Origin: Nitrospirae bacterium JdFR-85 | Lineage (GTDB): Bacteria; Nitrospirota; Thermodesulfovibrionia; Thermodesulfovibrionales; JdFR-85 | Assembly: GCA_002011745.1 (NCBI GenBank) | Contig: MTOU01000011.1 | Coordinates: forward strand, 1 to 62,455 | Length of the DNA: 62,455 nt | Reading direction: 5' to 3' | Part shown: piece after piece, positions 9,923-29,650 of the stretch | Position numbering within the stretch: the stretch's first letter is position 1 | Layout: each line of letters begins with the position of its first letter | Translations under genes and position numbers: made by a program | Notes under the pieces: generated by a model | What the model was told of the DNA's origin: nothing | Seen by the model: only the letters and a program-made list of their open reading frames with translations | The model's database searches: none

Positions 9923-9951
9923 TCCCGTCTTTGTATGATATACTATTGAAC

Positions 9952-11115
9952 ATGAGGGACATACTTATATGCGTAACAGGAGGGACTCCCCAGATAATTA
10001 CGGAAACCATCTATGCCCTTTCAATGAAATATCCTGAGATTCACTTAAAAGAGTTGTATGTGGTAACAACAGAATATGGCAGGAAACTTATAAAAGAGAG
10101 ACTGCTTAAAGAAGGTATTCTTTCGCAGATGCTCAAGGAATACGGTCTTCCTCCAATTAATTTTACTGATGAAAATATACTTGTAATTAAAGGCCGAGAT
10201 GGAACTCCTCTTGACGACATCCGCAACGAGGACGACAATACCTCCACTGGAAACCTCATTACTGAGTTTATCAGAACCTTGGCAAAAGACCCCGAACTGA
10301 GATTACACTGCTCCCTTGCAGGGGGCCGTAAAACCATGAGCTTTTACCTGGGGGCAGCACTCCAAATGTTCGGAAGACCCTGGGACAGACTTTACCATGT
10401 ACTTGTGAGTCCTGAGTTTGAAAATAACCCTGAGTTTTTCTATCCACCCAAGAAACCGCGTATGATAAAGTGTAGGCTCCCAGACGGCACCGAAACGCTT
10501 CTCTCCACAGCTGAGGCAAAGGTGACAATTGCAGAACTACCCTTCGTAAGACTTCGCGACAAGGTGCCTTTTAGGGAAGAGAGTTTTTTGGACTTGGTGA
10601 AGGAGGCTCAGCAGAGCGTGGATAGTTGTATTCCGCAACTGCCTCTAACGTTGGACTTCAACAGAAGACTCCTTCGTATCGGAATGTATAGGGTCAGACT
10701 CACTCCCATGCAGCTCGCACTCTATGCCATACTTGCCGAGCAGAAGACAGAACATTGTAGTAAATCTGAAAGACCGTACTGTGACGACTGTACCGCCTGC
10801 TATGTGGACATTATTACCCTTTCTGATGTAAAGAATCTTCAGAGGCTCATAAACTTCTACAAAACGATGTTCGGAACAAAGGCATGTTGTCTGGATGACG
10901 AAAGATGGAAGAGGTACGCAAAGAGAGGAGGCATACCGCACGAGGTTGTGAGACAACACCTCTCAAAGATTAACTATGCACTTAAAAGAGGAATAAAAGA
11001 CAAGGGACTTCACTCTCTCTACACCGTACACAAAACAGGCGCCTACGGCTCAACGAGATACGGAATAAGAATAGAAAAGGTTAGAATCTCCTTTGAACCT
11101 CCTACGAAGAGATGA
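9952..11115 (+). CDS. CRISPR-associated CARF protein, NE0113/Csm6 ring-nuclease family, with winged-helix C terminus
   Basis: 387 residues from ATG 9952. The first 200 residues match the Cas_NE0113 (TIGR02584) CARF family: DILICVTGGTPQIITETIYAL at the start, then SLAGGRKTMSFYLGAALQMFG and HVLVSPEFE. CARF domains bind cyclic oligoadenylate made by Cas10. The C-terminal part begins YRVRLTPMQLALYAILAE, like a winged-helix DNA-binding domain, has a cysteine cluster (C-x7-C-x2-C-x2-C near residues 265-280), and ends with a wing-like GSTRYGIRI. A single R-x4-H (RGGIPH) could be a HEPN motif, but the context favours wHTH. It overlaps cas6 by 4 bp. It may be a signal-dependent regulator or a ring nuclease. 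ATG 9931 is an alternative start. Confidence 0.75.
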   Translation: MRDILICVTGGTPQIITETIYALSMKYPEIHLKELYVVTTEYGRKLIKERLLKEGILSQMLKEYGLPPINFTDENILVIKGRDGTPLDDIRNEDDNTSTGNLITEFIRTLAKDPELRLHCSLAGGRKTMSFYLGAALQMFGRPWDRLYHVLVSPEFENNPEFFYPPKKPRMIKCRLPDGTETLLSTAEAKVTIAELPFVRLRDKVPFREESFLDLVKEAQQSVDSCIPQLPLTLDFNRRLLRIGMYRVRLTPMQLALYAILAEQKTEHCSKSERPYCDDCTACYVDIITLSDVKNLQRLINFYKTMFGTKACCLDDERWKRYAKRGGIPHEVVRQHLSKINYALKRGIKDKGLHSLYTVHKTGAYGSTRYGIRIEKVRISFEPPTKR

Positions 11116-12077
11116 TCATTTACTACAGTGTCTACAGGCTTGAGCTACTGCCAGAGGAGAGGATACTTCTCCCTCCTTATAAGGGTTCCACTCTCAGGGG
11201 AGCGTTCGGCACGGTCTTCAAAAGGATTGTCTGTGCTTTGAAGAACAAAAACTGCGAGGAGTGTATGCTGAGTGGAAGGTGCGTTTATGCCTATGTCTTT
11301 GAGTCAAAGCCCCAGGAGAGGATACACATCTTCGGAAGGGTGAATACCATACCGAGACCCTTTGTCATTGAGCCTCCAGAAGGCGAAAAGACGGAGTTTT
11401 CTCCCGGAGAAAGAATAGACTTTGCCCTTCTGCTTGTGGGAAGAGCATCTGAGTATCTACCTTACTTCGTCTACACCTTTGAAGAGCTCGGAAACTGGGG
11501 TATCGGCAAAGGAAGAGGCAGGTACAAGCTTCTTCAAGTAAAAGTTCCAGAAGGCAGAAAAGTCTATAACTCTAAAACAAGGACGATCACTCCTACGGTC
11601 CCTTCACAGATTGACTTAGGAGGGGCTGTCCAGTACTGCATAGATGGTATCAACTCTGCAACCTCATCTCAGAGGGTCACCTTAAGGTTTAAGACTCCTA
11701 CGAGGATAAAGTTCAACAGGAGACTTGTCATTGACCCCCAGTTTCACATTCTTATAAGACAGCTTTTGAGAAGACTCTTTCTCCTTTGGCACTTCCACTG
11801 CCGTGGCTCAGACTCTGCAGAAGAGCTTAAAGACCATCACAAGGAGGTAATCCAGTACTCCTACAAGGTGAAACTTCTCAGTTCGTCGCTCCGCTGGTAT
11901 GACTGGGAGCGTTACTCCCACAGGCAGAAGACGAAGATAAGACTCGGAGGATTCATAGGAGAAGTAACTTACGAGGGACCTGTTGCACCTTTTCTGCCTC
12001 TGCTCAGGGCAGGTGAGGTGCTTCACATAGGCAAGAGTACCACCTTTGGCCTCGGAAAATACGAGATACTGGACTGA
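11112..12077 (+). CDS. cas6: CRISPR pre-crRNA processing endoribonuclease Cas6
   Basis: 321 residues of the RAMP superfamily, Cas6 C-terminal-domain type. The N-terminal PPYKGSTLRGAFGTVFKR, a CxxC pair (CEECMLSGRC), the middle WGIGKGRGRYKL and the C-terminal glycine-rich loop HIGKSTTFGLGKYEI are the usual landmarks. Cas6 cuts within the repeats of the array transcript to make crRNAs for the Csm complex. Its ATGA overlaps the preceding CARF gene. The adaptation operon begins 61 bp downstream after tandem 11-bp repeats. Confidence 0.88.
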   Translation: MIIYYSVYRLELLPEERILLPPYKGSTLRGAFGTVFKRIVCALKNKNCEECMLSGRCVYAYVFESKPQERIHIFGRVNTIPRPFVIEPPEGEKTEFSPGERIDFALLLVGRASEYLPYFVYTFEELGNWGIGKGRGRYKLLQVKVPEGRKVYNSKTRTITPTVPSQIDLGGAVQYCIDGINSATSSQRVTLRFKTPTRIKFNRRLVIDPQFHILIRQLLRRLFLLWHFHCRGSDSAEELKDHHKEVIQYSYKVKLLSSSLRWYDWERYSHRQKTKIRLGGFIGEVTYEGPVAPFLPLLRAGEVLHIGKSTTFGLGKYEILD

Positions 12078-12138: not shown

Positions 12139-12420
12139 ATGAAAAGAGATCTCTACATAATAGCCTATGACATTACGGAGCCAACGAGACTCAACCGCGT
12201 GAGGTATCTCCTGAAGGGCTACAGCACAGGAGGGCAGAAGTCTGTCTATGAGTGTTTTCTTACAAAGGCAGAGTTGAGGTTTGTGGTAAGTGCTCTCCAG
12301 AGACTGATCTATGAAGAGCAGGACAGGGTCCACATCTTTCATCTTGAGGGCCGCTGCAGAACCCATACCCTTGGCATTGCTGTCCAGCCCAAAGACCCGA
12401 GCTTCTTTTACTTCGGCTAA
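12139..12420 (+). CDS. cas2: CRISPR-associated endoribonuclease/adaptor Cas2 (copy a)
   Basis: 93 residues with the Cas2 ferredoxin-like start LYIIAYDI (conserved Asp11 of the first strand), then PTRLNRVRYLLKGY and GGQKSVYECFLTKAEL. The C-terminal strand region ends FFYFG. Cas2 bridges two Cas1 dimers during spacer integration. It opens the cas2-cas1-cas1-cas2 operon, 10 bp ahead of the first cas1. Its sequence is clearly different from the second Cas2 (14210-14488), so the two are not recent duplicates. Confidence 0.92.
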   Translation: MKRDLYIIAYDITEPTRLNRVRYLLKGYSTGGQKSVYECFLTKAELRFVVSALQRLIYEEQDRVHIFHLEGRCRTHTLGIAVQPKDPSFFYFG

Positions 12421-12430
12421 AGGAGCGCAG

Positions 12431-13390
12431 ATGGGCACACTGTACATTGATAGAAAAGGATACTACATAAAAGCTGATGGTGAAACCATTGCCTTCTATG
12501 TAAATGGCAAGAGAGAGGGTGCTGTGCCAGTAAGACCTCTTAAGAGGGTAACGATAGTGGGAAATAACACGATTGATACTGCGGTGCTTCACAAGCTTCT
12601 GAAAATTGGCGCAACAGTGCTTTTTCTGTCAGGAAGGAGACTCCAGTTTATGGGCATCTTGAGAGGAAAGTTTAACAGTAATGGGATACTACGGTTAAAG
12701 CAGTACGAAATGAGCATAAATGGCGAGTTTACCTCTGAGTTTGCCAGACAACTGCTTCTGAGAAAGATCCGTTCTCAAAAGATATTTCTTGAAGAGGCAC
12801 TGAAGGAGAGGAGAGAGTTAAGAATACACTTCATGCAGACCTTTGACACACTGGACAACATATCAGAAGCCTTAAAGAAGAATAATACCTTAGGGATAGA
12901 AACCCTGAGGGGATACGAAGGAGCAGCCTCAAATGCATACTTTTCAGCCTTTGTAAGACTCTTTCCCGAGTATCTCAAGTTTGAAGGAAGAAACAGACGG
13001 CCTCCTCGTGACCCTGTTAATGCAATGCTTTCACTTTGCTACACGATGCTTTACTATGAGATTGTGAGTGAGATACACACTGTAGGGCTTGACCCCACCA
13101 TAGGGTTTTACCATCAGTTTGACTATGGTCGTGACTCTCTTGCCTGTGATATAGAAGAACTCTTTCGCCCCGAGGTAGACAGATTTGTACTGAAACTTTT
13201 TAGACAGAGATATATCAGGAAGAGGGACTTTGTAGAAGAAAAGGGAGGGGTCTATTTAAAGAAGGGGGCACGAACAAGGTTTTATCCTCTTTACGAAGCT
13301 TGGGTTGTGGAGATACGAAGACAGGTGAGAGAAGAACTAAGAGACCTTTCAAGGAGGATCACCGGTGGGAAGGACCCTTTATCTCGGTGA
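12431..13390 (+). CDS. cas1: CRISPR-associated endonuclease Cas1 (copy a, catalytic residues intact)
   Basis: 319 residues from ATG 12431, which has AGGAG just upstream; the longer open frame to 12311 would lie inside cas2. The N-terminal beta domain starts GTLYIDRKGYYIKADG. The catalytic domain keeps Glu in RGYEGAASNAYF, His in GLDPTIGFYHQFDYGR and Asp in SLACDIEELFRP, the metal-binding triad of the integrase. It therefore should be able to insert spacers. It overlaps the second cas1 by 26 bp. Confidence 0.93.
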   Translation: MGTLYIDRKGYYIKADGETIAFYVNGKREGAVPVRPLKRVTIVGNNTIDTAVLHKLLKIGATVLFLSGRRLQFMGILRGKFNSNGILRLKQYEMSINGEFTSEFARQLLLRKIRSQKIFLEEALKERRELRIHFMQTFDTLDNISEALKKNNTLGIETLRGYEGAASNAYFSAFVRLFPEYLKFEGRNRRPPRDPVNAMLSLCYTMLYYEIVSEIHTVGLDPTIGFYHQFDYGRDSLACDIEELFRPEVDRFVLKLFRQRYIRKRDFVEEKGGVYLKKGARTRFYPLYEAWVVEIRRQVREELRDLSRRITGGKDPLSR

Positions 13391-14213
13391 ACACAGAGGT
13401 ATGAAAGTGACAAGAGACGGTCCCTCACTCTGGATCAGGATTCCCGGCCAGGCGGGTCATCGCGTTCCCGTAAGGTTAATTGAGAGGGTAGTAATAGTAG
13501 GCAGAGTAGAAATTGACTCTTCCGTATTAACCCTGTTTGCCAAACACGACATTCCTGTTTTTCTCTTTAACAACCGCGGAGAGGAAATGGCAGTGGCTGT
13601 GTCACTGGAGCATAAACGCCCAAAATACTTTCACAGACAGAGAATATTCTTGGCCTCCGGAGAAAATAAAGAGAGGTACATGAACCTCCTGAGGTCTTGG
13701 AGGAGAAGGTTACAGCTTTATGTAATCAAACGCATCTCAAAGAAGAGACTGGTAGAGCGGTTTGCAGTACAGGGGCTCAAAGAACACGAGTACAAAGGTC
13801 TGGTAAACTCAGTTGCACGCCGATATGGAAATAGATTCAATTGTGTTCATAGAGTCGTAAAGGGACTGTTCAAGGAAATGGTAATATCTCGCATTCAAAA
13901 GGCCGGGCTTGATCCTGACCTGGGTGTACTTTATAAAGGAAGGAGATTCGGCCTCGTACTTGATTTATGTTATGTACTGGAACCTGAACAGGATTTACAG
14001 ACTTTCATGATGATGAAAAGCATATATCTGAATAGGTTCGTAAATCACCAGGGAGTAACTTCCGAAGGTATGAGAGATATTGTCTTAAGATTTGAAAACA
14101 GGCTCGCTTTTTCAACAATTATTACAGACCGAATTATAAGGAACATTATTGAAGCTATGTACGAACTTGAAACAGAAGGGTGTATAACTATTATAGAGAG
14201 GAAACTTTTATGA
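13365..14213 (+). CDS. cas1: Second, divergent Cas1 (copy b) lacking the catalytic histidine
   Basis: 282 residues from GTG 13365, with AAGGAGG at 13351-13357; the start GRTLYLGEHRGMKVTRDG matches the canonical Cas1 N terminus. The fold is conserved through GLDPDLGVLYKGRRFGLVLDLCYVLEP, but the histidine expected at GVLH is Tyr (GVLY) and the acidic/RP tail of the next motif is changed (DLCYVLEP). A Glu (in GLKEHEYKG) and the Asp appear retained. It is shorter than copy a and only distantly similar. It may be an inactive structural partner in a mixed Cas1 complex, or a Cas1 with altered chemistry. It is coupled to copy a upstream and to cas2b by an ATGA overlap. Confidence 0.88.
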   Translation: MGRTLYLGEHRGMKVTRDGPSLWIRIPGQAGHRVPVRLIERVVIVGRVEIDSSVLTLFAKHDIPVFLFNNRGEEMAVAVSLEHKRPKYFHRQRIFLASGENKERYMNLLRSWRRRLQLYVIKRISKKRLVERFAVQGLKEHEYKGLVNSVARRYGNRFNCVHRVVKGLFKEMVISRIQKAGLDPDLGVLYKGRRFGLVLDLCYVLEPEQDLQTFMMMKSIYLNRFVNHQGVTSEGMRDIVLRFENRLAFSTIITDRIIRNIIEAMYELETEGCITIIERKLL

Positions 14214-14488
14214 GAACTAACTATCTTGTCTGTTATGATATCAGAGACCCTGCAAGACTCCATAGAGTTTATAACTATCTTAAAGGCAGAGGCAAACACC
14301 TTCAGTACTCGGTGTTTTGTTGTTTGCTCACTTATGGAGAGCTTCAAGAAATGAAGAGAAATCTTGAAATGATGATAGATACTCTTAGGGACGATGTGAG
14401 AATCTATTCACTGCCTCGGAGGTTTGAGATGATAGTACTCGGATGTGGAGACCGTTTGCCCAATGGTGTACAACTTTTCGAAGAATGA
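14210..14488 (+). CDS. cas2: CRISPR-associated Cas2 (copy b)
   Basis: 92 residues starting at ATG 14210, which overlaps the cas1b stop. The first strand NYLVCYDI carries the conserved Asp, followed by PARLHRVYNYLKGRGKHLQYSVFCCLL, the usual Cas2 helix and second strand. It diverges strongly from the other Cas2. Its stop lies about 200 bp before the first repeat, so the CRISPR leader starts directly behind it. Confidence 0.9.
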   Translation: MRTNYLVCYDIRDPARLHRVYNYLKGRGKHLQYSVFCCLLTYGELQEMKRNLEMMIDTLRDDVRIYSLPRRFEMIVLGCGDRLPNGVQLFEE

Positions 14489-14691
14489 AAAACTTAAGAA
14501 CAATTTGATTTTTGTAAAAAGAAGAGGTATAATTTTACAAAAGTTCTTTGACAACAAAATCTTTTTAATCTTGTTTGTTATAAGAATCGTTTATAGAACT
14601 ATAAAAAAGAGTCTAAGTTATGTAATGATAATAATCTTGGCCGAAAGGAAACTAAACCTATTGATTTTATTTCAGAAAAAGACGATGTGCA
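14489..14691 (+). promoter_or_regulatory. CRISPR leader with array promoter
   Basis: A 203-bp AT-rich stretch between cas2b and the first repeat. TTGATT (14505-14510) and a perfect TATAAT (14528-14533) are separated by exactly 17 bp, predicting transcription start near 14540 and a leader RNA of about 150 nt. A second TTGACA-like element is at 14548-14553 without a well-placed -10. Its position next to the cas genes and at the 5' end of the array marks it as the integration-proximal leader. Confidence 0.72.
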
Positions 14692-17600
14692 GTAGAAACG
14701 AAGACCTCAAAAAGAAGGGATTGCGACAACATGTACTGTTTAACTTCACTTTCAATTTTTTGTAGAAACGAAGACCTCAAAAAGAAGGGATTGCGACTGA
14801 TGCTGGTAGATACAAGACTTGACCTCGGTAGCTTACCGTAGAAACGAAGACCTCAAAAAGAAGGGATTGCGACCTTATAGATGCTTTTGATTGTCATTGA
14901 TCCTCCCGTAGAAACGAAGACCTCAAAAAGAAGGGATTGCGACCCCTATCCCCTTTTAAAGTTATTTACTCTTTTTAGTAGAAACGAAGACCTCAAAAAG
15001 AAGGGATTGCGACCTGAATAAATGGTGTCTGTTTCATAGTTCAACCTTCGTAGAAACGAAGACCTCAAAAAGAAGGGATTGCGACTTGATGTCTCTCTTG
15101 TTGATAGTGGCAAATCCTGCAGTGTAGAAACGAAGACCTCAAAAAGAAGGGATTGCGACAACTCTAACAACTGAACATCAGCCAGTGGACCGTTTGCCAG
15201 TAGAAACGAAGACCTCAAAAAGAAGGGATTGCGACTATTCCAAACAGTATCTGTCTAACTCTTCTTGTAGAAACGAAGACCTCAAAAAGAAGGGATTGCG
15301 ACTTTTTAACACCTTAGCTATTTCTGTTACAACAACCTTGTAGAAACGAAGACCTCAAAAAGAAGGGATTGCGACCCATTAAGGTAAACCTTAATGCTAT
15401 AGATGATGCTGTAGAAACGAAGACCTCAAAAAGAAGGGATTGCGACGTTATAGAATCTTGTGATAGTCTTCTCATCTCTTGTAGAAACGAAGACCTCAAA
15501 AAGAAGGGATTGCGACAGGTTGACTTATGATTGTTATATAGTTGTTTAATGGTGTAGAAACGAAGACCTCAAAAAGAAGGGATTGCGACAACTTGTCAGG
15601 TTGTAAGTCCTTCAACCATGCAAGGTGTAGAAACGAAGACCTCAAAAAGAAGGGATTGCGACCTCCTGGATCACAATTTCTTCTTTCCTGCCGTCGGGTA
15701 GAAACGAAGACCTCAAAAAGAAGGGATTGCGACGGTAGTCATTGGCATCCACCACCTCTACCTTAGCCTGGTAGAAACGAAGACCTCAAAAAGAAGGGAT
15801 TGCGACAAAGAGAGGAGACTTAGTTAGTCTCCTCTACTAGTAGAAACGAAGACCTCAAAAAGAAGGGATTGCGACAATCTTTCAAAGAAATGCGTTTGTT
15901 AGACTTTTTGCGTAGAAACGAAGACCTCAAAAAGAAGGGATTGCGACATCCCCAGCGAATATGTACTTGCTGGGGTACCCTCCCGGTAGAAACGAAGACC
16001 TCAAAAAGAAGGGATTGCGACCTACCGTTCTTATACTGGTAGATTTGTGACGAATCGGGATGGAGTAGAAACGAAGACCTCAAAAAGAAGGGATTGCGAC
16101 CGCCAGTCATTCACGAGATTTGAGAGGGCAAATCTCGTAGAAACGAAGACCTCAAAAAGAAGGGATTGCGACAGGAATAAGAGGGATTCAAATGGAAGGT
16201 CATGTTATGGCCAGTAGAAACGAAGACCTCAAAAAGAAGGGATTGCGACTGAGAGGGCAAATCTCACGCCCTCTTCGAACCCTCTCTGTAGAAACGAAGA
16301 CCTCAAAAAGAAGGGATTGCGACTTTTTATAACTCTATCGGTACTGGTAAAACCAGTTATCCGTAGAAACGAAGACCTCAAAAAGAAGGGATTGCGACCC
16401 CAAATCTGACAATTTGACCCTTTTAGGTACTGATTTTTTCTGTAGAAACGAAGACCTCAAAAAGAAGGGATTGCGACCTGTTATATAAGGTATGGGTTTC
16501 ATAGTTTCACCTTGGTAGAAACGAAGACCTCAAAAAGAAGGGATTGCGACTCATCATACTGTTTGCTTATTTCTCTAATATTTGCCAGTAGAAACGAAGA
16601 CCTCAAAAAGAAGGGATTGCGACCTTTGTGATCCCCTTCTCTTTTGCATAAGTGGTTATTGTAGAAACGAAGACCTCAAAAAGAAGGGATTGCGACGTAT
16701 GCTCACTGCTCCCAGGTTTGCCACCCATGGCATGTAGAAACGAAGACCTCAAAAAGAAGGGATTGCGACTAATACATTATTTCTTTTTCTTGATCTTTCT
16801 TGACTTGTAGAAACGAAGACCTCAAAAAGAAGGGATTGCGACATCCATGTAAGTGTATTCCTTTTCCTCTGAGGGATGTGGTAGAAACGAAGACCTCAAA
16901 AAGAAGGGATTGCGACTGGTCAAACTCAACCCACTGTTTGTAAGTTTTAGTATCCGTAGAAACGAAGACCTCAAAAAGAAGGGATTGCGACAATAGAAAT
17001 CTATCTATTTCTTTGCCGTACAGGGTGTAAAGTAGAAACGAAGACCTCAAAAAGAAGGGATTGCGACCCAGCGCTCCAAGAGAGGGTATCGAAACCCTCT
17101 CTATGTAGAAACGAAGACCTCAAAAAGAAGGGATTGCGACTTAAGCACCATCCTCCACCTCCATAGACTTAATGTAGAAACGAAGACCTCAAAAAGAAGG
17201 GATTGCGACTTTACTAAGTCCTTAACTGTTTTAATCATTTTCCTTACCTCAGTAGAAACGAAGACCTCAAAAAGAAGGGATTGCGACATGGCGTCTTTCT
17301 TGCTTAACTTGTTAATGTCCACATGTAGAAACGAAGACCTCAAAAAGAAGGGATTGCGACGGGATAGAGATATAAATCCCTATCCCTCTTGCAGGTAGAA
17401 ACGAAGACCTCAAAAAGAAGGGATTGCGACTAATATTGGTGTTTCAATGTTTTTTAGAGTAGAGTAGAAACGAAGACCTCAAAAAGAAGGGATTGCGACG
17501 GTCTCCATCCTCTGAGCTTTTCCTCTGCACTATAGGTAGAAACGAAGACCTCAAAAAGAAGGGATTGCGACAATTTATTTTTTATATATTATTAACCCTC

Positions 17601-20600
17601 CAGTGGGTAGAAACGAAGACCTCAAAAAGAAGGGATTGCGACACAGAGTATGGGTAGAGGTTCCCATCGCTGGAACCTTGTAGAAACGAAGACCTCAAAA
17701 AGAAGGGATTGCGACAGGTCTTGATGACGAAAATAAAGGTGAACAGAGCAAGTAGAAACGAAGACCTCAAAAAGAAGGGATTGCGACATCCTACACACTC
17801 AGGGATGGTTGAGGGACTGGCTTGTAGAAACGAAGACCTCAAAAAGAAGGGATTGCGACCCCCTGCGTCCTTCACTGTTTCACAACAGGAAAGGGTAGAA
17901 ACGAAGACCTCAAAAAGAAGGGATTGCGACCTAAGCCCTTGATTACTGAGTGTGCCAATCCTACACACGTAGAAACGAAGACCTCAAAAAGAAGGGATTG
18001 CGACCATCCTGATCGGGTTACCGCCCGATTCGGTAGTTGTGTAGAAACGAAGACCTCAAAAAGAAGGGATTGCGACTTACCGCCCGATTCGGTGTTGCCT
18101 CTGTTTTGTGAGAGTAGAAACGAAGACCTCAAAAAGAAGGGATTGCGACTCCCTTCACTGCATACGCAGTCCTTCAGGATGACTTTGTAGAAACGAAGAC
18201 CTCAAAAAGAAGGGATTGCGACAGTGTGCCAACCCTCACACACTCAGGGATGGTTGAGGGAGTAGAAACGAAGACCTCAAAAAGAAGGGATTGCGACTAC
18301 CCTTGCAGAGTATGGGTAGAGGTTCCCATCCCTGGTAGAAACGAAGACCTCAAAAAGAAGGGATTGCGACGTCTCCATCTTCAATCTTCACAAGTAGACC
18401 ATCGTAGAAACGAAGACCTCAAAAAGAAGGGATTGCGACAGAGGGTGTCAAAACCCTCTCCGTCCTTTTCCCTACAAGTAGAAACGAAGACCTCAAAAAG
18501 AAGGGATTGCGACGTCTGAATTGTGGTTAATACTGGATACTCTTTAATCAGTAGAAACGAAGACCTCAAAAAGAAGGGATTGCGACCTTTTCCCTACAAA
18601 ATATATATTTCGTGGGATGGTAGAAACGAAGACCTCAAAAAGAAGGGATTGCGACCGTCAAAGACGGTTACTTTTGAATGCCTATGCTTGTAGAAACGAA
18701 GACCTCAAAAAGAAGGGATTGCGACAACATGATCTAATACAGTTATAAAACCTCTGCACTGGTAGAAACGAAGACCTCAAAAAGAAGGGATTGCGACTCC
18801 TCTTTGCCTCCTTTTTATGAAATTTAAAAAGCCGTAGAAACGAAGACCTCAAAAAGAAGGGATTGCGACAGAGAAACCGCCGCCCCCATCATTGCACCGA
18901 TGAGGTAGAAACGAAGACCTCAAAAAGAAGGGATTGCGACGGGATTAAATAAAGACAACATTAGTTGTCAAAGAACAACTTGTAGAAACGAAGACCTCAA
19001 AAAGAAGGGATTGCGACAACATGATCGCTATTTCTTCCACTCCTCTCCATTTTGTAGAAACGAAGACCTCAAAAAGAAGGGATTGCGACCCTGCGTCCTT
19101 CACTGTTTCACAACAGGAAAGGGTAGAAACGAAGACCTCAAAAAGAAGGGATTGCGACTAGTATAAGTCAGGATCCCTCTTCAACACCTTAGCAGTAGAA
19201 ACGAAGACCTCAAAAAGAAGGGATTGCGACCAGTGTCCCAAGAGAGGGTATTGAAACCCTCTGTGTCGGTAGAAACGAAGACCTCAAAAAGAAGGGATTG
19301 CGACGAGGGTATCGAAACCCTCTGCATCCTTTCCTCTACAAAGTAGAAACGAAGACCTCAAAAAGAAGGGATTGCGACTGAGCTACAGTATGAAAGTGTT
19401 CAGTTGAAATGGGTAGAAACGAAGACCTCAAAAAGAAGGGATTGCGACCCTCAGTGCCATAGTACTTTTGCCAGTAGACTTATCGTAGAAACGAAGACCT
19501 CAAAAAGAAGGGATTGCGACTTTTCTTAAAGTACTGAGAGTGTCAATCTTTTCCTTCTCGTAGAAACGAAGACCTCAAAAAGAAGGGATTGCGACACAGG
19601 ACAGGGCTCAAAGTCTTTTATACAGGTGACATAGGTAGAAACGAAGACCTCAAAAAGAAGGGATTGCGACCCTCAGAAATGCCGCCACCTTTTTCAGGGT
19701 GGTGGCAACAGTAGAAACGAAGACCTCAAAAAGAAGGGATTGCGACCATCTGTTGACCCCTTTCTTTGAATTATACTCGTCGTAGAAACGAAGACCTCAA
19801 AAAGAAGGGATTGCGACCTCGTAACGGTAGGTTCTCGTTTCTGAGGGATAGGGTAGAAACGAAGACCTCAAAAAGAAGGGATTGCGACTGTCCCTTTAAG
19901 CACTTTTTGTAAAAATTTTCGTATAGTAGAAACGAAGACCTCAAAAAGAAGGGATTGCGACTTTGCCCCCTTTCTTTGGATTATACTTGTCTTGACTATG
20001 TAGAAACGAAGACCTCAAAAAGAAGGGATTGCGACCGAGATCGGCAGGTTCAAGGTGAGCAGGAATTTCAGCGTAGAAACGAAGACCTCAAAAAGAAGGG
20101 ATTGCGACAAGGCTAAATCTTTAAGAGATACTCTTTTATTAGGTAGAAACGAAGACCTCAAAAAGAAGGGATTGCGACCTTTCTTTGTCTTTTGTAATCT
20201 TTTAGCTAATTCGTAGAAACGAAGACCTCAAAAAGAAGGGATTGCGACGGTCCCCTACTCCTCAATCTCCTCATCCTCTTCTGGTAGAAACGAAGACCTC
20301 AAAAAGAAGGGATTGCGACTAATATTTTTTGGTGCTTTTTCTGTTTTTTCTTGTGTAGAAACGAAGACCTCAAAAAGAAGGGATTGCGACCCACTGGCCT
20401 AGGCTTGCTCACTGCTCTCAGGTTTGCCAGTAGAAACGAAGACCTCAAAAAGAAGGGATTGCGACCCGTCAGCCTCCCTACATCTTGGTACGGTAAACCA
20501 CACGTAGAAACGAAGACCTCAAAAAGAAGGGATTGCGACCCTCAGAAATGCCGCCACCTTTTTCAGGGTGGTGGGTAGAAACGAAGACCTCAAAAAGAAG

Positions 20601-22161
20601 GGATTGCGACTATCGAGAGCTTTCTTCCTTTCCATCTCCACCTCCAAAAGTAGAAACGAAGACCTCAAAAAGAAGGGATTGCGACTTTCCTCCGTACTAT
20701 AGATACTTTGAGTATCATTACAGTAGAAACGAAGACCTCAAAAAGAAGGGATTGCGACACTCATCATCATCTTCTTCTTCTGTAGATGGAGTCTCGTAGA
20801 AACGAAGACCTCAAAAAGAAGGGATTGCGACCCAGGAAAACCATAATCCCTTGTCAATTCTTTGATATAAGTAGAAACGAAGACCTCAAAAAGAAGGGAT
20901 TGCGACGAGGTTAGTCAAAGGGTTACTTTTGAATGCCTATACTTAGGTAGAAACGAAGACCTCAAAAAGAAGGGATTGCGACGGTCAATGAGCTGAATCT
21001 GTTTATTTGCTTCTTCTTGTAGAAACGAAGACCTCAAAAAGAAGGGATTGCGACCGTCAGGCAGAGCCTGTTACCTGACGGCCTATGTCTTAGTAGAAAC
21101 GAAGACCTCAAAAAGAAGGGATTGCGACGACTTGTCTGAAGTCTGGATTGTTTCCAATACCTTATGGTAGAAACGAAGACCTCAAAAAGAAGGGATTGCG
21201 ACCCTCACTGTGTGATTTACCCGTCAAAGACGGGACTTGTAGAAACGAAGACCTCAAAAAGAAGGGATTGCGACATTTCATCGTTATAGAGTGTGTACTT
21301 CCTACCTTTATAGTAGAAACGAAGACCTCAAAAAGAAGGGATTGCGACCCAACTCACAGGCTGCCAGGTATTATACCCAGCAGCGTAGAAACGAAGACCT
21401 CAAAAAGAAGGGATTGCGACCCAGCATCTGCAAAGATAAACCTACTGGGATACCCTTCGGTAGAAACGAAGACCTCAAAAAGAAGGGATTGCGACTGTTG
21501 TTATACAACAAAAATTTATACATTTCTTCCCAGTAGAAACGAAGACCTCAAAAAGAAGGGATTGCGACTCTCTCACAGACCTGAAGAGTCTGTGAGATTA
21601 CCTTGAGTAGAAACGAAGACCTCAAAAAGAAGGGATTGCGACGAGGGATGGAAGGAATGTATTGAATAGAAGTAGGAGACGTAGAAACGAAGACCTCAAA
21701 AAGAAGGGATTGCGACTCTTGAATAGTGCCATGACATCCTCCCTGTCTCCCTCCCTGTAGAAACGAAGACCTCAAAAAGAAGGGATTGCGACAAAGGTCA
21801 TGCTCGAAGTGATAGCCAGAAGGACAATATGAGTAGAAACGAAGACCTCAAAAAGAAGGGATTGCGACCCTATCCTTATACCTGATTGTCATGTATGGCA
21901 TAGTGTAGAAACGAAGACCTCAAAAAGAAGGGATTGCGACAAAGGTCATGCTCGAAGTGATAGCCAGAAGGACAATATGAGTAGAAACGAAGACCTCAAA
22001 AAGAAGGGATTGCGACATACAAAGATAAATGTAATTAAGGCAATTAGGGGCTCAAGTAGAAACGAAGACCTCAAAAAGAAGGGATTGCGACTTTGTTTAC
22101 TTTGCTCATTTGCTATATCTACAAGGTAGAAACGAAGACCTCAAAAAGAAGGGATTGCGAC
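14692..22161 (+). CRISPR. CRISPR array, 103 repeats and 102 spacers
   Basis: A 36-bp repeat beginning GTAGAAACGAAGACC and ending AAGGGATTGCGAC recurs with 67-79 bp spacing; I counted 103 starts from 14692 to 22126. No copy with a base change was noticed, including the last. Spacers are about 31-43 bp. The repeat's ATTGCGAC 3' end, resembling the common ATTGAAAC tag, and the leader promoter both indicate plus-strand transcription, the same direction as all cas genes. Spacers 98 (21793-21832) and 100 (21941-21980) are identical; others are truncated or variant versions of each other, and many are hairpins. It serves the type III-A complex encoded downstream. Confidence 0.98.
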
Positions 22162-22530: not shown

Positions 22531-24978
22531 ATGGATAAGGAGTTTATTCCATTTGTGAAAGGTGCTCTACTCCACGATATCGGAAAAGTGATTCAGAGAG
22601 CCTCTGACCATCCCGCTTATAAAAAACATACTGAATGGGGCTATGATTGGCTCATAGAAAAGGGCTTTGACGAAAATATTGCACTGGCTTCATTGTGTCA
22701 TCACTACCATCCTGATTATACCTATAAAAGTAATGCTGCTCTTATTTGGTATCAGGCAGATAATCTGGCATCAGGTGAGAGAAAAGAGATTGAAGACGAA
22801 GAATTTGAAGAATCAGAATGGCATAGAGATGTTCTGCTTGCATCACCTTTTAGTAGGATAAGGAATCCTCTAAATATAGATGAGATTCCTGAACTTACAT
22901 ATCTACCTCTAATAAAAAATCTTGAAAGTGTAGAAGTAACTTTAAAAGACGAAACAGAAGCCCCTGCTGGAACAGAAGAATATAAAAAACTTTTGAGTGA
23001 TTTTGAGAAGGACTTAGAAGTTGGCAGAAAATATGGGTATCCATTTAATCTCCTTCTCATGCTCTTTGAGAAACACTTCTCAAATGTCCCGTCAATCACT
23101 TCTAAGTATTATTCAAAAGTTACCAGACAAGAAATAAAATCCAAACACCCTGACATTTCCCTTTTTGACCACTCTAAATTGACTGCTGCCATAGCGGGCT
23201 GTATGTATCGCTACTATAGAGAAACCTATCCTGATAGATGGAACACTGAAATGCTTGTAGATGAAATAAAGAATGTACCTGACGACCATAAACCATATCT
23301 TCTCATCGGTGGAGACATTTCAGGCATACAGAAATTTATCTTCACCATAACTTCTAAAGGTGCACTGAAGTCTCTTAAAGGAAGGTCCTTCTTCCTTGAA
23401 CTCCTGACAGAACATTGTGTATCAGAATTGATTGAAAAACTCAACCTAACAAGATGCAATCTGATCTTTTCAGGTGGTGGACATTTTTATATACTTGGCT
23501 ACAATACACACTCAGCAGTAAAGGTTATAAATGAGTTACGAGATAGAATAAACGATCTCCTCTTTAAAGAATTTGAAGGAGCCTTACAGGTCCACATTGA
23601 TTACGAACCATTTCATCCAGACTTATTTTCTAAAAAAGGAACAGAGTTGTCAGAATTGTGGAATGTACTTTCTGAGAAACTTGAGAAGAGGAAAAAGAAA
23701 AAGTGGCTTTTAAGGCTTGAAAAGTATCTAATACCGCAGATGCCCTATGAAGACAAAGATGAAGAGAAAAGTTGCCTGACCCGTTCTTGTGAGATATGCT
23801 TTAGAGAAGATAAACCTCTTGTAGATTTAATAGAAGAAGAGGAGATTAAAGTTTGCGAATCATGCCGAAGTCAGTATTTACTTGGTAGTATGCTCGTAAG
23901 AATCTCTAAAAAACACCAGCCAGTGATATACAAATTCAAAGAAAAACCTCAAATGGATTCTATTAAAATAGCAAACCATTATTACACAATCCTGAATGAC
24001 TGGGATGAAAACCTGGGAAAAACTGCTTTATCTGTTTACAGAGTCAATGACTTTCGTCCAGAGGCTTATGAGCATTCTAATGCTATTTTTTTACCCTTTG
24101 GAATATATCAACACGATGAAATGCAAGAACTTTCTGATGTAAAAGATGAGTTTGGCATATCAAGGCTGGCCGTTTTGAGAATGGATGTTGACAATCTTGG
24201 AAAGATATTCTCTGAGGCTGTCCATCCAGAGGACAGAACCTTCTCCCGTATGGCTTCAATCTCAAGGAGGCTGAACGAGTTTTTTAAATATTACCTTAAC
24301 CACATCGTTGAAGGCAGGGTAATAGAGGATGCCATAGATGTGGCTGGAAGAGGTGTCAAAGACAAAAGAAGAAAGCTCTCAGTAGTGTATTCAGGTGGAG
24401 ATGACCTTTTTATCATAGGACACTGGCTTGATGTTACAGAGGCAGCGATTGATATTAATAGATACTTCAGAAAATACACGGGTAATCCATTTATAAGCAT
24501 CTCTGGTGGAATTGCGATAAACCACCCTAAATACCCTGTTTATCAATACGCCCGCGATGCAGAAAGAGCAGAAACTATAGCAAAGGAAAATAGAAAGAAT
24601 GGTGCTAAAAATGCCATAACGCTTTTTGGAGGTAAGGACTTTAAATGGTACGAGATTAATGAAGTATTAGAAAGAGTTGACCTTTTCCTGAGGTTCCTCA
24701 GAAAAGATACTGATCACATAGAGGTTGATCCTGAAAAACTTCCAAAGACATTTTTTTACAGGTTACTGTCTCTTGCAAGAAGGTTCAACGAAGAAGGAGT
24801 ACTCATTCTGCCCAAAGCAGCCTATCTTATCTCTCGGGCAAATTTTAAGAATGCAATGCCAGATGAGATTCTTAAAATAAAGGAGGTCGTCATGACCAGT
24901 AGCAAAGAACAATGGAAAATCACAGAAACTGCCACATTGTGGACATTAATGATGATGAGAAGAGGAGGTGAGGAATGA
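22531..24978 (+). CDS. cas10: Type III-A CRISPR polymerase/nuclease Cas10 (Csm1)
   Basis: 815 residues. An N-terminal HD nuclease motif (LLHDIGKV, H15-D16) is followed by a first palm domain (GGDISGIQKF near residue 260), a zinc-binding region (CLTRSCEICF ... CESC) and the second palm with GGDD at residues 622-625, the catalytic site for cyclic oligoadenylate synthesis. Both DNase and signalling activities should therefore be present. It is the large subunit of the Csm complex. Its stop overlaps csm2 (ATGA). The signal it makes would be read by the CARF proteins at 9952 and 28568. Confidence 0.95.
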   Translation: MDKEFIPFVKGALLHDIGKVIQRASDHPAYKKHTEWGYDWLIEKGFDENIALASLCHHYHPDYTYKSNAALIWYQADNLASGERKEIEDEEFEESEWHRDVLLASPFSRIRNPLNIDEIPELTYLPLIKNLESVEVTLKDETEAPAGTEEYKKLLSDFEKDLEVGRKYGYPFNLLLMLFEKHFSNVPSITSKYYSKVTRQEIKSKHPDISLFDHSKLTAAIAGCMYRYYRETYPDRWNTEMLVDEIKNVPDDHKPYLLIGGDISGIQKFIFTITSKGALKSLKGRSFFLELLTEHCVSELIEKLNLTRCNLIFSGGGHFYILGYNTHSAVKVINELRDRINDLLFKEFEGALQVHIDYEPFHPDLFSKKGTELSELWNVLSEKLEKRKKKKWLLRLEKYLIPQMPYEDKDEEKSCLTRSCEICFREDKPLVDLIEEEEIKVCESCRSQYLLGSMLVRISKKHQPVIYKFKEKPQMDSIKIANHYYTILNDWDENLGKTALSVYRVNDFRPEAYEHSNAIFLPFGIYQHDEMQELSDVKDEFGISRLAVLRMDVDNLGKIFSEAVHPEDRTFSRMASISRRLNEFFKYYLNHIVEGRVIEDAIDVAGRGVKDKRRKLSVVYSGGDDLFIIGHWLDVTEAAIDINRYFRKYTGNPFISISGGIAINHPKYPVYQYARDAERAETIAKENRKNGAKNAITLFGGKDFKWYEINEVLERVDLFLRFLRKDTDHIEVDPEKLPKTFFYRLLSLARRFNEEGVLILPKAAYLISRANFKNAMPDEILKIKEVVMTSSKEQWKITETATLWTLMMMRRGGEE

Positions 24979-25607
24979 GTAAAGAGCGGACAATAGATGA
25001 TGCGATCACATTAGCTAAAAAATACAATGTAGCTCTGCAAGCAGTAAAAAAGGAAAAAAACGAATATAAATGGAATAAGTTAGAAGAAGCAGAGTATGAT
25101 TTTCGAGTGAAACTTACAGAAGAAGATAAAAATAATTTAAAAAAGGACAGAAAAGAGTTAATTAACGAATTAAACAAAGAGCAACTTCATCTGATAGTAG
25201 CCAGAAATATTCAAAATATTTTTATTTTTGAAAATAAAAAGAATGATGGTGCAACGAAAACTGCTCCTACTAAAGAATCTGCAGAAATGCTAAACAAATT
25301 TTCAGAATTAATTGGGCTTTTGTCTAAAGCTAATGGTATTAGTACTTCACAAATACGAAAGTTTTTAGATGCACTACGAAAGATAAAAACATCTATAAGC
25401 AAAGATGAATTTAATCCTTCAGAAGTTCTATTACTACAAGTTAAAGTAGCTTATACTGCAGGCAGAAACAGAAATTTAAATTTCTTTTACGATGTTATGA
25501 AGCCTGCAATAGAGTATGGAAGTAGGGATAAATTTCATTTTGAACAACTATTGCGATTTGTTGAAGCCATAGTAGCTTACCATAGATTCTACAAAGGCGA
25601 AAATTAA
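24975..25607 (+). CDS. csm2: Csm2, small subunit of the type III-A effector, with N-terminal extension
   Basis: 210 residues. The C-terminal 110 residues have the typical all-helical Csm2 pattern: ISTSQIRKFLDALRKIK, LLQVKVAYTAGRN and LLRFVEAIVAYHRFY. Csm2 lines the target-strand groove of the Csm complex. Usual members are about 120-150 residues, so the first 80 or so residues (highly charged, Lys/Glu-rich) are extra. ATGA overlap with cas10; it ends at 25607, adjoining csm3. Confidence 0.85.
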   Translation: MSKERTIDDAITLAKKYNVALQAVKKEKNEYKWNKLEEAEYDFRVKLTEEDKNNLKKDRKELINELNKEQLHLIVARNIQNIFIFENKKNDGATKTAPTKESAEMLNKFSELIGLLSKANGISTSQIRKFLDALRKIKTSISKDEFNPSEVLLLQVKVAYTAGRNRNLNFFYDVMKPAIEYGSRDKFHFEQLLRFVEAIVAYHRFYKGEN

Positions 25608-25621
25608 TGAAGGAGGCAAAA

Positions 25622-26425
25622 ATGGAAAAGCCAATTTTAGGAAAGATAATTATGATGGGGACAATTGAGTGTCTTACAGGGCTTCACATTGGTGCCTCAA
25701 AAGAAAATATGGAGATAGGGGCAATTGATGCACCCGTTGTGCGTGACCCTGTAACAAGGGAGCCGTATATTCCGGGAAGCTCACTGAAAGGTAAAATGAG
25801 GGCACTTTTGGAGAAGGCTTTGAGTTCAAATAACACTAACATTGCTAATAACAAGCGAAATATTGGCACAAGAAATAATCCAATTTTTATTCATGTCTGT
25901 GATGACTATAATTTAGCTTTATCATGCCAACTTTGTAGAATTTTTGGTTCATCAGGAAAAGAAGGTGGGAAAAATTTTCCTGCTCGCCTGATTGTTAGAG
26001 ACTCTTACTTAGAAGACGAAAGCTTAAAGAAACTCTCAGAAATTGACACAGGTCTTCAATATACAGAATGGAAATTTGAAAATGCTATTGATAGAGTTAC
26101 CTCTGCTGCCAATCCCCGCCAGATTGAAAGGGTACCAAAGGGTGCTGAGTTTAGATTTGAGATGATCTATAATGTTGAAGACAGAAAGCAGATTGAAGAG
26201 GATCTAAAAAACCTCAATCTTGCCATTGAACTTCTAAAACTTGACTCTCTTGGAGGTCATGGCTCAAGAGGTTATGGAAAGGTTGATGTAAAGTTTGATT
26301 GCGTCAAGGCTATGACCGTTGAGCACATAAAAGGTGACTCACCTGATGGAATTAAAGAGGTTAAATCTCTTGAACAGATTAATGAAATTATTAATTTATT
26401 CAAGAATGGCTCAGAGGAAAAGTAA
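25622..26425 (+). CDS. csm3: Csm3, backbone RAMP and target-RNA nuclease
   Basis: 267 residues from ATG 25622, with AGGAGG at 25611-25616. Csm3 forms the helical backbone and cuts target RNA every 6 nt. The catalytic Asp lies in MEIGAIDAPVVRDP, followed by YIPGSSLKGKMRALLE; a cysteine-rich CxxCRIFGSSG segment and the glycine-rich LGGHGSRGYGKV are intact. It therefore should be an active RNase. Confidence 0.93.
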   Translation: MEKPILGKIIMMGTIECLTGLHIGASKENMEIGAIDAPVVRDPVTREPYIPGSSLKGKMRALLEKALSSNNTNIANNKRNIGTRNNPIFIHVCDDYNLALSCQLCRIFGSSGKEGGKNFPARLIVRDSYLEDESLKKLSEIDTGLQYTEWKFENAIDRVTSAANPRQIERVPKGAEFRFEMIYNVEDRKQIEEDLKNLNLAIELLKLDSLGGHGSRGYGKVDVKFDCVKAMTVEHIKGDSPDGIKEVKSLEQINEIINLFKNGSEEK

Positions 26426-26427
26426 AG

Positions 26428-27417
26428 ATGGAAATCTATCTCTTAAAATTAAAGTTTAATGGTCCAACTCACTTTGGTGAGACAGGAATTGACCTTGAGA
26501 ATGTCTCAGAAAGAGTGAGTTCTGATACTTTGTTTTCAGGTCTGGTTAATGCATACAGCACAGTCAGTAGCAGAAAAGAGGTCACGGACTTCCTTCAACA
26601 TTTTAAAGAAAAACCACCATTCTTTATAAGTTCACTTTTTATCTACATAGACGACATCTATTTTTTACCAAAACCTCTTTGGGACAACCACATTGATAAG
26701 GATTTTAAAAGAAGGTTTGGCAAAGAACTCAAAAGACTGAAATGGCTTGATCTATATGGATTCTCAAAATGGCTTCAGGGCGAACTAACAGAAGCAGATA
26801 TAGAAGGTATGATTGAAACCCAGAAAAAATACTATGAAGCTTTTAAGATAGACATAAGACCACGGGTGTCGCTTGATAGAACAACCCAGCAGAGTGCACT
26901 GTATCATGCTGGTTATGTGTACTTCAGCAAAGATGCAGGATTATATGGCCTTGTAGCATTTAAGGAAAGTGGGTTTATTAATGATTTTGAAAGATTGCTG
27001 AGAATCCTTGGCGAAGTAGGTCTTGGTGGTGAAAGAACCTATGGATGTGGCACTTACAAAGTAAAGACTTATGAACAAGTTTCAGGAACATTTGAGAAGA
27101 TATTGTTTGGCAAGTATTCAAATTATATTATTTTATCACTCTACCATCCCTCAGAGAGAGAAATGAAAGAATTAATCAACAATGTACTATCGTATGACTT
27201 AATCCGTAAAAGAGGCTGGATCACAAGCGGCAGAAATGCATTGCCGTACAAGAGAAAATATGCTGGGTTCTTTGTAGAGGGAAGTGTATTTAAAGAAAAA
27301 CCCTTAGGATGCCTTGTGGATGTAACCCCTGATGATAACAATTTACAGAAGGAAATAGGGCATCCTGTTCTTAGATATGGTTATGCTTTTAGTATTCCAG
27401 TAGAAGGAGCATTATAA
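26428..27417 (+). CDS. csm4: Csm4, crRNA-tag-binding RAMP of the Csm complex
   Basis: 329 residues. The N-terminal RAMP strand LKLKFNGPTHFGETGI, SSDTLFSGLVNAY and the later glycine-rich EVGLGGERTYGCGTYKV are typical. Csm4 contacts Cas10 and caps the crRNA 5' tag. It starts 2 bp after csm3 and its stop overlaps the csm5 ATG by one base (TAATG), so the genes are translationally coupled. Confidence 0.9.
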   Translation: MEIYLLKLKFNGPTHFGETGIDLENVSERVSSDTLFSGLVNAYSTVSSRKEVTDFLQHFKEKPPFFISSLFIYIDDIYFLPKPLWDNHIDKDFKRRFGKELKRLKWLDLYGFSKWLQGELTEADIEGMIETQKKYYEAFKIDIRPRVSLDRTTQQSALYHAGYVYFSKDAGLYGLVAFKESGFINDFERLLRILGEVGLGGERTYGCGTYKVKTYEQVSGTFEKILFGKYSNYIILSLYHPSEREMKELINNVLSYDLIRKRGWITSGRNALPYKRKYAGFFVEGSVFKEKPLGCLVDVTPDDNNLQKEIGHPVLRYGYAFSIPVEGAL

Positions 27418-28553
27418 TGAAAGTTTTAGAGAAAACAACTTTAAAGCTTACAACGCAATCGCCCATTCATATTGGTAGCGTTGAGCAAAAATTAACCCCT
27501 TTTGAGTATATACTTAAAGACGGATATGTTTATCCTGTTTCAGAAAATATTCTTTCTGAATTTCTGCTACAACGAAAACTCATAAACTCATATCTCTCAG
27601 CAATTGAAACACAGGGACACAGGTTCAGAATTGAGGATTTCTTTAATCAAAATGGTGTTAAACTTGACGATTCTGAACTACTCAAACTCAGCAATGGCAA
27701 AAGAGTAAGAATATCTGGAAATACATCAAGGCTAACAGAATATAGACCCTTCATCAGAGACGGACTTGGAAATGTATATCTTCCAGGCACGGCAATTAAA
27801 GGCGTAATAAGAACAGCAGTGCTGTACTGTATTCTTAAGAGATATAAAGAATCAGATCCTAAAAATTTCAAAAAACAAATAGAGGAAAGAATAGACAAGA
27901 CTGATATAAGATCTTTTAAACGCAGAGATACCTTCTTATGGCTACAAGAGTTTTATCTTCAAAATTTCACTCTAAACAACAAAAAACGGAGTCCAAATAC
28001 TGATTGGTTCCGTGTTATTAGTGTTTCGGATGCATATTCAGAAAGGGATTTTCAGACAGAAATTATAGGTATTAAAGTCTTAAAAAAAGAAAAATCGGGC
28101 TGGCAGATAAAGAGATTAAATAAAGATCGGGATATGTTGATTTGGGCGGAGTGTGTTCCTGAAGGAGTTACCTTTAGATTTGACATTTGTTTTGATAAAA
28201 ATATCTTAGAAAAATTCAATGATGCTAAACAGAATAAATTTCCACAAAATATTCAAGAGTTGCTAAATATGATTCAAGAATGGGCAAGAGACATACAAAA
28301 ATATGAGCAGAAATTTTTTGATGGTCATCCTTTATCACGATGGTATCAGAGAGAGCTCAACTTCAGAATAGGCTTTGGATCTGGTATGCTCTCAACCACA
28401 ATAGCACTTCTTTTGCCAGAGGATTTAAGAAAAAAGATTCGTAACTACTCAGGCAAAAACAAGGGCAACGAAATCGCACCAAAGTCAAGAAGACTCTGGA
28501 TCAATAATAACAAGTATACTCCTTTAGGATGGGCTAAATTAGATATAACTTAA
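27417..28553 (+). CDS. csm5: Csm5, crRNA 3'-end RAMP of the Csm complex
   Basis: 378 residues. The RAMP start LKLTTQSPIHIGSVEQKLTP, then VYLPGTAIKGVIRTAVLYCIL and the late FRIGFGSGMLSTTIALLL are the usual Csm5 landmarks. Csm5 caps the distal end of the complex and takes part in crRNA 3' maturation with host nucleases. It is the last structural csm gene; the CARF-RelE effector follows after 14 bp. Confidence 0.9.
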   Translation: MKVLEKTTLKLTTQSPIHIGSVEQKLTPFEYILKDGYVYPVSENILSEFLLQRKLINSYLSAIETQGHRFRIEDFFNQNGVKLDDSELLKLSNGKRVRISGNTSRLTEYRPFIRDGLGNVYLPGTAIKGVIRTAVLYCILKRYKESDPKNFKKQIEERIDKTDIRSFKRRDTFLWLQEFYLQNFTLNNKKRSPNTDWFRVISVSDAYSERDFQTEIIGIKVLKKEKSGWQIKRLNKDRDMLIWAECVPEGVTFRFDICFDKNILEKFNDAKQNKFPQNIQELLNMIQEWARDIQKYEQKFFDGHPLSRWYQRELNFRIGFGSGMLSTTIALLLPEDLRKKIRNYSGKNKGNEIAPKSRRLWINNNKYTPLGWAKLDIT

Positions 28554-28567
28554 ACTGGGGAATAATA

Positions 28568-29650
28568 ATGAGTGTCAAACCAACGGTATTTCTTTGTCCT
28601 TCAGGGATATCAATTATTGAATATCTTAAAAGAGAAGGTATGCCTTCCATATCAACACAAACCATTCATGATTTCCTTAAAGATTCCAATGAAGAAACTC
28701 TTAAAAGAGCATCAGCAGAAATTAATTCTTTATACAGAATGGGAATAAATGAAAATGATGTAGTTGTCTTTTTCAGCAGTGATACTGAGGATGGAGAAAT
28801 GGTTGCTGAAATTCTCAGTAATTTTCTAAAAAATAAAATTGGCTGTGATACTTATGTGAAAAGAATTAAGGGTTTACAAATAAATGACAAAAGAAGGTTT
28901 GACAGAGAAGGCATACCTAACCTAACTGAAGAGGTGGTTAACCAGATTGAAAAGTACCAATACTCACATGCAATGGTAATTAATGCTACAACAGGATTCA
29001 AAGCCACTGTGCCCTATCTGACATTTATAGGTATGGTATTTCAAATTCCGATCAAATATATCTTTGAAAGATCAAATGAAATTATTGAATTACCTCCTAT
29101 TCCTATAGATTTTGATCTCAAAAGGTTAGAATCTCTTGCTCCTGTGATTGATCGGATTATTGATGATTTTGCACCTGGTGAAGAAATCACAAAAGAACTA
29201 GGAGTGTCAGAGTATGAATTGAAAACTAACTTCAGTGACATTTTATTAGAAGAAGATGGATTCTTTACGCTCCGTCCCACGGGACGCATTTTATATAAAA
29301 GATACCTCCATATAAAAGGATATAAAAACATCTTTATTTCAGAGAAAGTCTTTAAAAAACTTAATTCAGGCGAATACGATAAAAACAAGTTTGTTTCACT
29401 TTTCAAGAAAATGAAAGATCCCGTACATCTTAAAAGCAAACTCCATAGTGAGGTAAAGAAAAAAGGTAAAATAGACTTAGAATGTTATAAACAAGGAAAC
29501 ACAAACGAAAGAATATTCTTCTATATTGAAAATAATAGTCTCTATATTTGTGACATTTTAATGCACGATGAATACTTGAGATTGATTAATGAAGGAAAAT
29601 TATTAAAAGAGGAATTTCCTCAACGGTTATTTCAAAAGTTACAAACATGA
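28568..29650 (+). CDS. CARF effector with RelE-like C-terminal toxin domain (Cami1-like)
   Basis: 360 residues. The first 190 form a CARF domain of the APE2256 type (FLCPSGISIIEYL; VVVFFSSDTEDGEMVAEIL; VINATTGFKATVPYLTFIGM). A middle helical or winged-helix segment (about 200-260) follows. The C-terminal 95 residues (FISEKVFKKLNSG ... KLHSEVKKKGKIDLECYK ... NERIFFYIENNSLYICDILMHDEYLR) match the RelE/ParE mRNA-interferase pattern, with a basic stretch and the R-hydrophobic-YI-ENN-hydrophobic-HDEY ending. CARF-RelE fusions (Cami1) cut ribosome-bound mRNA upon cyclic-oligoadenylate binding. The domain call is by eye. GGGG precedes the ATG, and the stop overlaps the next gene by 4 bp. Confidence 0.72.
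   Translation: MSVKPTVFLCPSGISIIEYLKREGMPSISTQTIHDFLKDSNEETLKRASAEINSLYRMGINENDVVVFFSSDTEDGEMVAEILSNFLKNKIGCDTYVKRIKGLQINDKRRFDREGIPNLTEEVVNQIEKYQYSHAMVINATTGFKATVPYLTFIGMVFQIPIKYIFERSNEIIELPPIPIDFDLKRLESLAPVIDRIIDDFAPGEEITKELGVSEYELKTNFSDILLEEDGFFTLRPTGRILYKRYLHIKGYKNIFISEKVFKKLNSGEYDKNKFVSLFKKMKDPVHLKSKLHSEVKKKGKIDLECYKQGNTNERIFFYIENNSLYICDILMHDEYLRLINEGKLLKEEFPQRLFQKLQT

Follow-up and report, generated by a model that had tools for sequence, protein, structure and literature searches.

A conserved four-gene CRISPR adaptation module encodes a second, diverged Cas1 with a substituted active site

When a type III-A CRISPR-Cas locus includes adaptation genes, these are usually a single cas1 and a single cas2. 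In the stretch of the Nitrospirae bacterium JdFR-85 genome analysed here (62,455 nucleotides, referred to as the window), two of each are found side by side, which raises the question of what a second Cas1 contributes to spacer acquisition when, as the first-pass annotation had it, its catalytic histidine is missing. The locus is a complete type III-A CRISPR-Cas system with cas10, csm2-csm5 and an array (Table 1). The overlapping cas2a-cas1a-cas1b-cas2b operon described at 12139-14488, between cas6 and the leader, was read again from the sequence, and its coordinates, gene order and overlaps were all found to be correct. Pfam profiles called the four genes Cas2, Cas1, Cas1 and Cas2, with a far better value for the first Cas1 than for the second (Table 1).

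Table 1. Features of the adaptation module and of its surroundings in the window.
Feature	Position	Strand	Evidence
CARF-domain protein, NE0113/Csx1 family	9931..11115	+	TIGR02584 4.7e-68; PADLOC CARF5 8.4e-107; NCBIfam name ring nuclease Csm6
cas6	11112..12077	+	PF10040 2.1e-20; PADLOC Cas6 1.4e-100
cas2a	12139..12420	+	PF09827 2.4e-16; 78% mean column identity, 15 sequences
cas1a	12431..13390	+	ATG 12431; PF01867 3.5e-80; 319 aa; AlphaFold2 pLDDT 94.2
Ribosome-binding site AAGGAGG for cas1b, within the end of cas1a	13351..13357	+	Direct sequence reading
cas1b	13365..14213	+	GTG start; PF01867 1.2e-15; 282 aa; AlphaFold2 pLDDT 92.9
cas2b	14210..14488	+	PF09827 3.8e-18
Putative A+T-rich leader	14489..14691	+	Position between cas2b and first repeat
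CRISPR array, 103 repeats (36 nt), 102 spacers (31-43 nt)	14692..22161	+	
cas10/csm1, type III-A	22531..24978	+	PADLOC Cas10 9.3e-165, Cas10a 7.7e-160
csm2, csm3, csm4, csm5	24975..28553	+	PADLOC matches
CARF-RelE accessory protein	28568..29650	+	PADLOC CARF_RelE 9.3e-57

The cas1a and cas1b genes overlap by 26 nt, and the AAGGAGG motif reported upstream of the cas1b GTG start was present. The ATGA coupling of cas1b to cas2b was likewise confirmed at the cas2b start; in an overlap census, this 4-nt overlap was found in 35 of 49 loci, and translational coupling within the four-gene operon is thus conserved across loci. All 103 repeats of the array are identical, and the repeat was found in no other array of the genome. 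One 40-nt spacer is present twice, and the array spacers gave no match to sequenced phages. A separate, ordinary Cas1 is encoded elsewhere in the JdFR-85 genome (G000:C19, L154). Two different CARF proteins flank the system, one of the NE0113/Csx1 type upstream and a CARF-RelE protein downstream. Further upstream, on the minus strand at 6864-7880, lies an ORF judged by eye to be selD-like, whose reading frame continues upstream across a single in-frame TGA (KVRAAG-TGA-AAKLGP), suggesting that this selenophosphate synthetase may itself be a selenoprotein.

The two paralogue pairs are divergent, as had been noted: Cas1a and Cas1b align over no more than 68 N-terminal residues, at 34% identity, and Cas2a and Cas2b over 79, at 38%. 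Cas1a has kept its catalytic residues E163, H228, D240 and E243, which were invariant in all 52 aligned Cas1a sequences, giving the complete metal-ligand set of Glu, His and acid; by reference to E141, H208 and D221 of E. coli Cas1, E243 matches the second acidic position, which is a metal ligand. In Cas1b, the reported tyrosine was found at the histidine position (Y190 opposite H228), and the altered acidic motif was traced to Y203 opposite E243, with D200 opposite D240. A displaced catalytic histidine was ruled out, as none is found near residue 190 and there is no other His in residues 181-206. Also, the RRPP loop adjoining the Cas1a active site has no counterpart in Cas1b. With Tyr190 and Tyr203, Cas1b of the window lacks the ligand set of an active Cas1 and very probably cannot act as an integrase by itself.

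To place these substitutions in the family, residues were counted in 51 Nitrospirota-type Cas1b sequences. The histidine position is occupied by His in 27 of the 51, by Asn in 12 and by Tyr in four, including the window protein. The second acidic ligand is replaced in 50/51 sequences (Tyr in 36, His in eight), D200 is kept in 50/51, and an E or D stands at column 140 in 45/51. An acid at column 140 is combined with both His190 and Asp200 in 26 sequences, and all four ligands are present together in none. The earlier view of histidine loss as the lesion of Cas1b therefore holds for the window protein but not for the family, in which His is retained in about half of the members and the second acid is the residue that is lost; as the defining lesion, loss of His was rejected. 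Profile alignments placed the catalytic Glu at Q136 of the window protein, a column that is not conserved, and in the AlphaFold model of Cas1b a helix begins at residue 140. Family-wide loss of the catalytic Glu was set aside in view of the acid at column 140, even though the profile aligners point to column 136. Given the 26 sequences with acid 140, His190 and Asp200, residual activity in some Nitrospirota-type members is possible. A basic motif, H/N-R-R-x-N-F, is common in Cas1b relatives. In the proteobacterial-type Cas1b, the catalytic motifs are largely gone, with no recognisable His and Glu motifs, and the N-terminal domain is still recognisable.

Single-chain AlphaFold2 predictions were of high confidence for Cas1b as well as for Cas1a (Table 1). 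A Foldseek search with the Cas1b model matched the Cas1 structures 4xtk_A and 2yzs_A (TM 0.73), and the best 50 matches listed, none with a TM above 0.73, were all Cas1 or casposase chains. Cas1b is thus predicted to have an intact Cas1 fold with an N-terminal beta domain and a C-terminal helical domain. Its match to the Cas1 profile PF01867 lies above the Pfam cut-off, and its score against TIGR00287 (52.4 bits) is under the cut-off of 71.7. The PADLOC profile PDLC01185, named "Cas1, diverged variant, second in the loci", carries a label that fits the genomic position of cas1b. It was the best PADLOC match for seven of the eight proteobacterial-type Cas1b tested and matched 12 of 15 of the Nitrospirota type; the window Cas1b was also matched (E 1.5e-6), but ordinary Cas1 models score better, the position as second in the locus being what fits. 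PDLC01185 is a named profile only.

The search for the four-gene order in other genomes that the first-pass annotation had proposed was carried out on three samples. Among 61 genomes centred on the taxonomic order to which the window belongs, Cas1b was present in 15, with the exact four-gene order in 14 of 14 relatives. A scan of all GTDB genomes with the conserved Cas2a as probe yielded 80 loci, seven of which end too soon after cas2a to be judged; the order cas2a-cas1a-cas1b-cas2b was found in 67 of the 73 informative loci. Because the same four genes recur in the same order in 67 other loci, the arrangement is not a product of chance. Of the remaining six, five are Nitrospira loci in which cas2a stands alone, and the sixth is a Thiobacillus locus without cas1b. 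The hosts, mostly MAGs, belong to Nitrospirota, Thermodesulfobacteriota, Myxococcota, Aminicenantes, Acidobacteriota and several proteobacterial classes, and the module is thus widespread beyond the near relatives of JdFR-85. Recognisable cas10/csm genes and adjacent arrays accompany it at many loci. In a sample of 396 Nitrospirota genomes, cas1b adjoins all 44 Cas1a genes of at least 430 bits, one of these cas1b copies being truncated. No matches were found in viral contigs or in plasmids. In-frame stops flagged in genes of some relatives do not mark broken genes, as the same genes are intact ORFs.

Two loci, both of the proteobacterial type, carry cas2a-cas1a-cas2b without cas1b, namely L126:8280-9604 in a Thiobacillus denitrificans MAG and L160:1646-3390 in a genome (G204) from the phylum of the window. 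They show Cas2 duplication to be separable from the presence of Cas1b, and cas1b not to be indispensable everywhere. The only clearly damaged copy observed was in L170:1876-2750 (G316, Nitrospirota), where cas1b stops after about residue 200 and the first residues of cas2b are missing, as might result from a deletion spanning the cas1b-cas2b junction. The lone Cas2a-type cas2 genes are in Nitrospira MAGs (L102, L103, L104, L105 and L107) with no module cas1 detected nearby; the one in L103 follows a probable CARF-type gene and is near an array. At L054:8001-10308, the whole module together with cas10 and an array was found in a contig assigned by binning to an Archaeoglobi archaeon (JdFR-42), with a Cas2a of 72% identity, which may reflect either transfer into archaea or misbinning.

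Selection was assessed from pairwise NG86 estimates for pairs with usable dS. The dN/dS values were mostly 0.04-0.19 for cas1b and about 0.03-0.11 for cas1a. A cas1b value of 0.38 came from L082/L083, the closest pair, in which changes are too few to be informative. The cas1b gene is accordingly under purifying selection, close to that on its operon partners. Relaxed selection and frequent loss of cas1b, which had been named as grounds for giving up the original interpretation, were looked for, and neither was seen. The view of cas1b as maintained and not decaying was thus upheld by purifying selection, by its linkage to all 44 Nitrospirota Cas1a genes and by the intact predicted fold. Nevertheless, the rate of evolution of Cas1b is about double that of Cas1a, the tree lengths being 33.6 and 17.8, respectively. 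Mean identity within Cas1b is 38% for the N-terminal and 24% for the C-terminal domain, compared with 48% and 50%, respectively, within Cas1a. Judged by these values, constraint in Cas1b is shifted to the N-terminal domain, which in Cas1 is the dimerisation domain.

The distances of Cas1a and Cas1b were correlated with r = 0.70, which is similar to the other operon pairs (0.60-0.73) and indicates co-inheritance and not specific coevolution. In trees, both Cas1a and Cas1b form two groups, one of the Nitrospirota type and one of the proteobacterial type, and several pairs match between the two proteins, such as window/L048, L116/L112 and L115/L169. Deep support for one origin in the Cas1b tree was weak, with long branches and the L109 Cas1b placed outside; a single ancient origin of Cas1b is likely. 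Alignments revealed Cas2a and Cas2b to be distinct conserved families with distinct C-terminal ends, the C-terminal region of Cas2 being the one that contacts Cas1. This suggests that the Cas2 proteins may form a heterodimer.

On balance, we favour the interpretation that a duplicated Cas1 was turned into a dedicated non-catalytic subunit of the spacer-acquisition module, the loss of catalysis being inferred from the residues described above. In the Cas1-Cas2 hexamer, catalysis would fall to the Cas1a chains and the scaffold role to Cas1b, with Cas1a-Cas1b heterodimers pairing via the conserved N-terminal beta domains and sitting on a Cas2a-Cas2b core in a single complex. A Cas1b homodimer could also form in place of the heterodimer. 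Cas1b would have a role in binding of the prespacer or the repeat, and the product would feed the adjacent 103-repeat array and, through its crRNAs, the type III-A Csm complex. Gene duplication would thereby fix the two roles as a genetically set division of labour, and such a history would leave the site fully conserved in one Cas1 and freed from constraint in the other, which would retain the dimerisation domain, with all genes in one coupled operon. Precedent for the scaffold role comes from ordinary integrases, where two of the four Cas1 chains perform strand transfer and the other two, which are inactive, wall the repeat channel (PMC12259127) and where non-catalytic Cas1 contacts the repeat (PMC6895254), and from an RT-Cas1 complex, in which the conformation of the non-catalytic Cas1 domains is unlike that of the catalytic copy (PMC8102632).

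Other readings draw on the same data. The gene pairing cas2a-cas1a and cas1b-cas2b, the conserved ATGA coupling of the latter pair and the differing Cas1-contacting ends of the two Cas2 proteins would fit a complex built from homodimers, in which Cas1a sits on Cas2a at one end and Cas1b on Cas2b at the other, so that one end is active and the polarity inherent. We regard this as unlikely, since full spacer insertion takes two strand transfers, which a complex with an inactive end could achieve only with a further enzyme or after reorganisation, and since cas2b persists without cas1b in L126 and L160, indicating that Cas2b is not Cas1b-specific. It is quite unlikely, too, that Cas1b is a separate accessory factor for prespacer capture, as a trimming partner, in leader binding or in regulation, and not a stoichiometric part of the integrase; the twofold faster evolution and the basic motif of its own would agree with this, but the invariant place in a coupled Cas1/Cas2 operon and the preferential conservation of the dimerisation domain speak more for a subunit.

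A modified metal-dependent activity of Cas1b would have to rely on the column-140 acid, D200 and, where present, His190. The frequencies of these residues in the census speak for it, as does the helix start in the model, by which E140 could replace the catalytic Glu. We consider such activity decidedly unlikely in view of the nearly universal loss of the second acidic ligand, the additional absence of His from the window protein, the alignment of the Glu with Q136 instead of E140, the missing RRPP loop and the proteobacterial members without recognisable His and Glu motifs. That Cas1b is a decaying, functionless duplicate is extremely improbable; its faster evolution and the truncated copy in L170 are what might be expected of decay, but dN/dS, intact frames in several phyla, the Nitrospirota linkage and the high-confidence fold led us to reject a pseudogene.

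Compared with known systems, the module shares the Cas1 fold, the Cas2 fold and the array-adjacent position with the canonical Cas1-Cas2 integrase (Cas1 tetramer, Cas2 dimer), which is encoded by one cas1 and one cas2 gene and in which the inactive role is set by position in the complex. The four-gene module differs in having a second Cas1 gene from which catalytic residues have been lost and in the duplication of Cas2. The type III Cas6-RT-Cas1 complex also combines catalytic and non-catalytic Cas1 chains, but both stem from one RT-fused gene (PMC8102632); Cas1a and Cas1b are unfused, match Cas1 only and are flanked by cas6 and cas2, and no RT match was obtained among the cas genes of the window, so that the locus falls outside RT-Cas1 adaptation. 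With typical type III-A (Csm) systems, the window has in common cas10, csm2-5, cas6 and CARF accessory genes. The parts are hence of known kinds, and a diverged second Cas1 had already been noted by the PADLOC profile curators. In the open-access literature, we found no description or characterisation of the PDLC01185 protein, its activity or the four-gene module. The module as a conserved set of four genes, the breadth of its distribution, the detail at residue level and the evidence of selection appear to be new and undescribed in the open literature searched.

Cas1-Cas2 complexes are two-fold symmetric, yet spacers need one polarity, and the source of the asymmetry is under active discussion, with PAM, Cas4, IHF or Cas3 as the usual answers. 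We think it rather doubtful, but conceivable, that fixed Cas1/Cas2 hetero-pairs make the integrase asymmetric and thereby distinguish the ends of the prespacer or the repeat. If this were true, type III systems, whose guides must be antisense to transcripts, would gain a means of setting spacer orientation. More generally, the module would add a pseudoenzyme to CRISPR adaptation and may account for some of the loci annotated with two cas1 genes. With the active and the inactive Cas1 split over two genes and Cas2 duplicated, scaffold and catalytic subunits would become mutable independently of each other, and the loci L126 and L160 offer natural controls for the contribution of cas1b.
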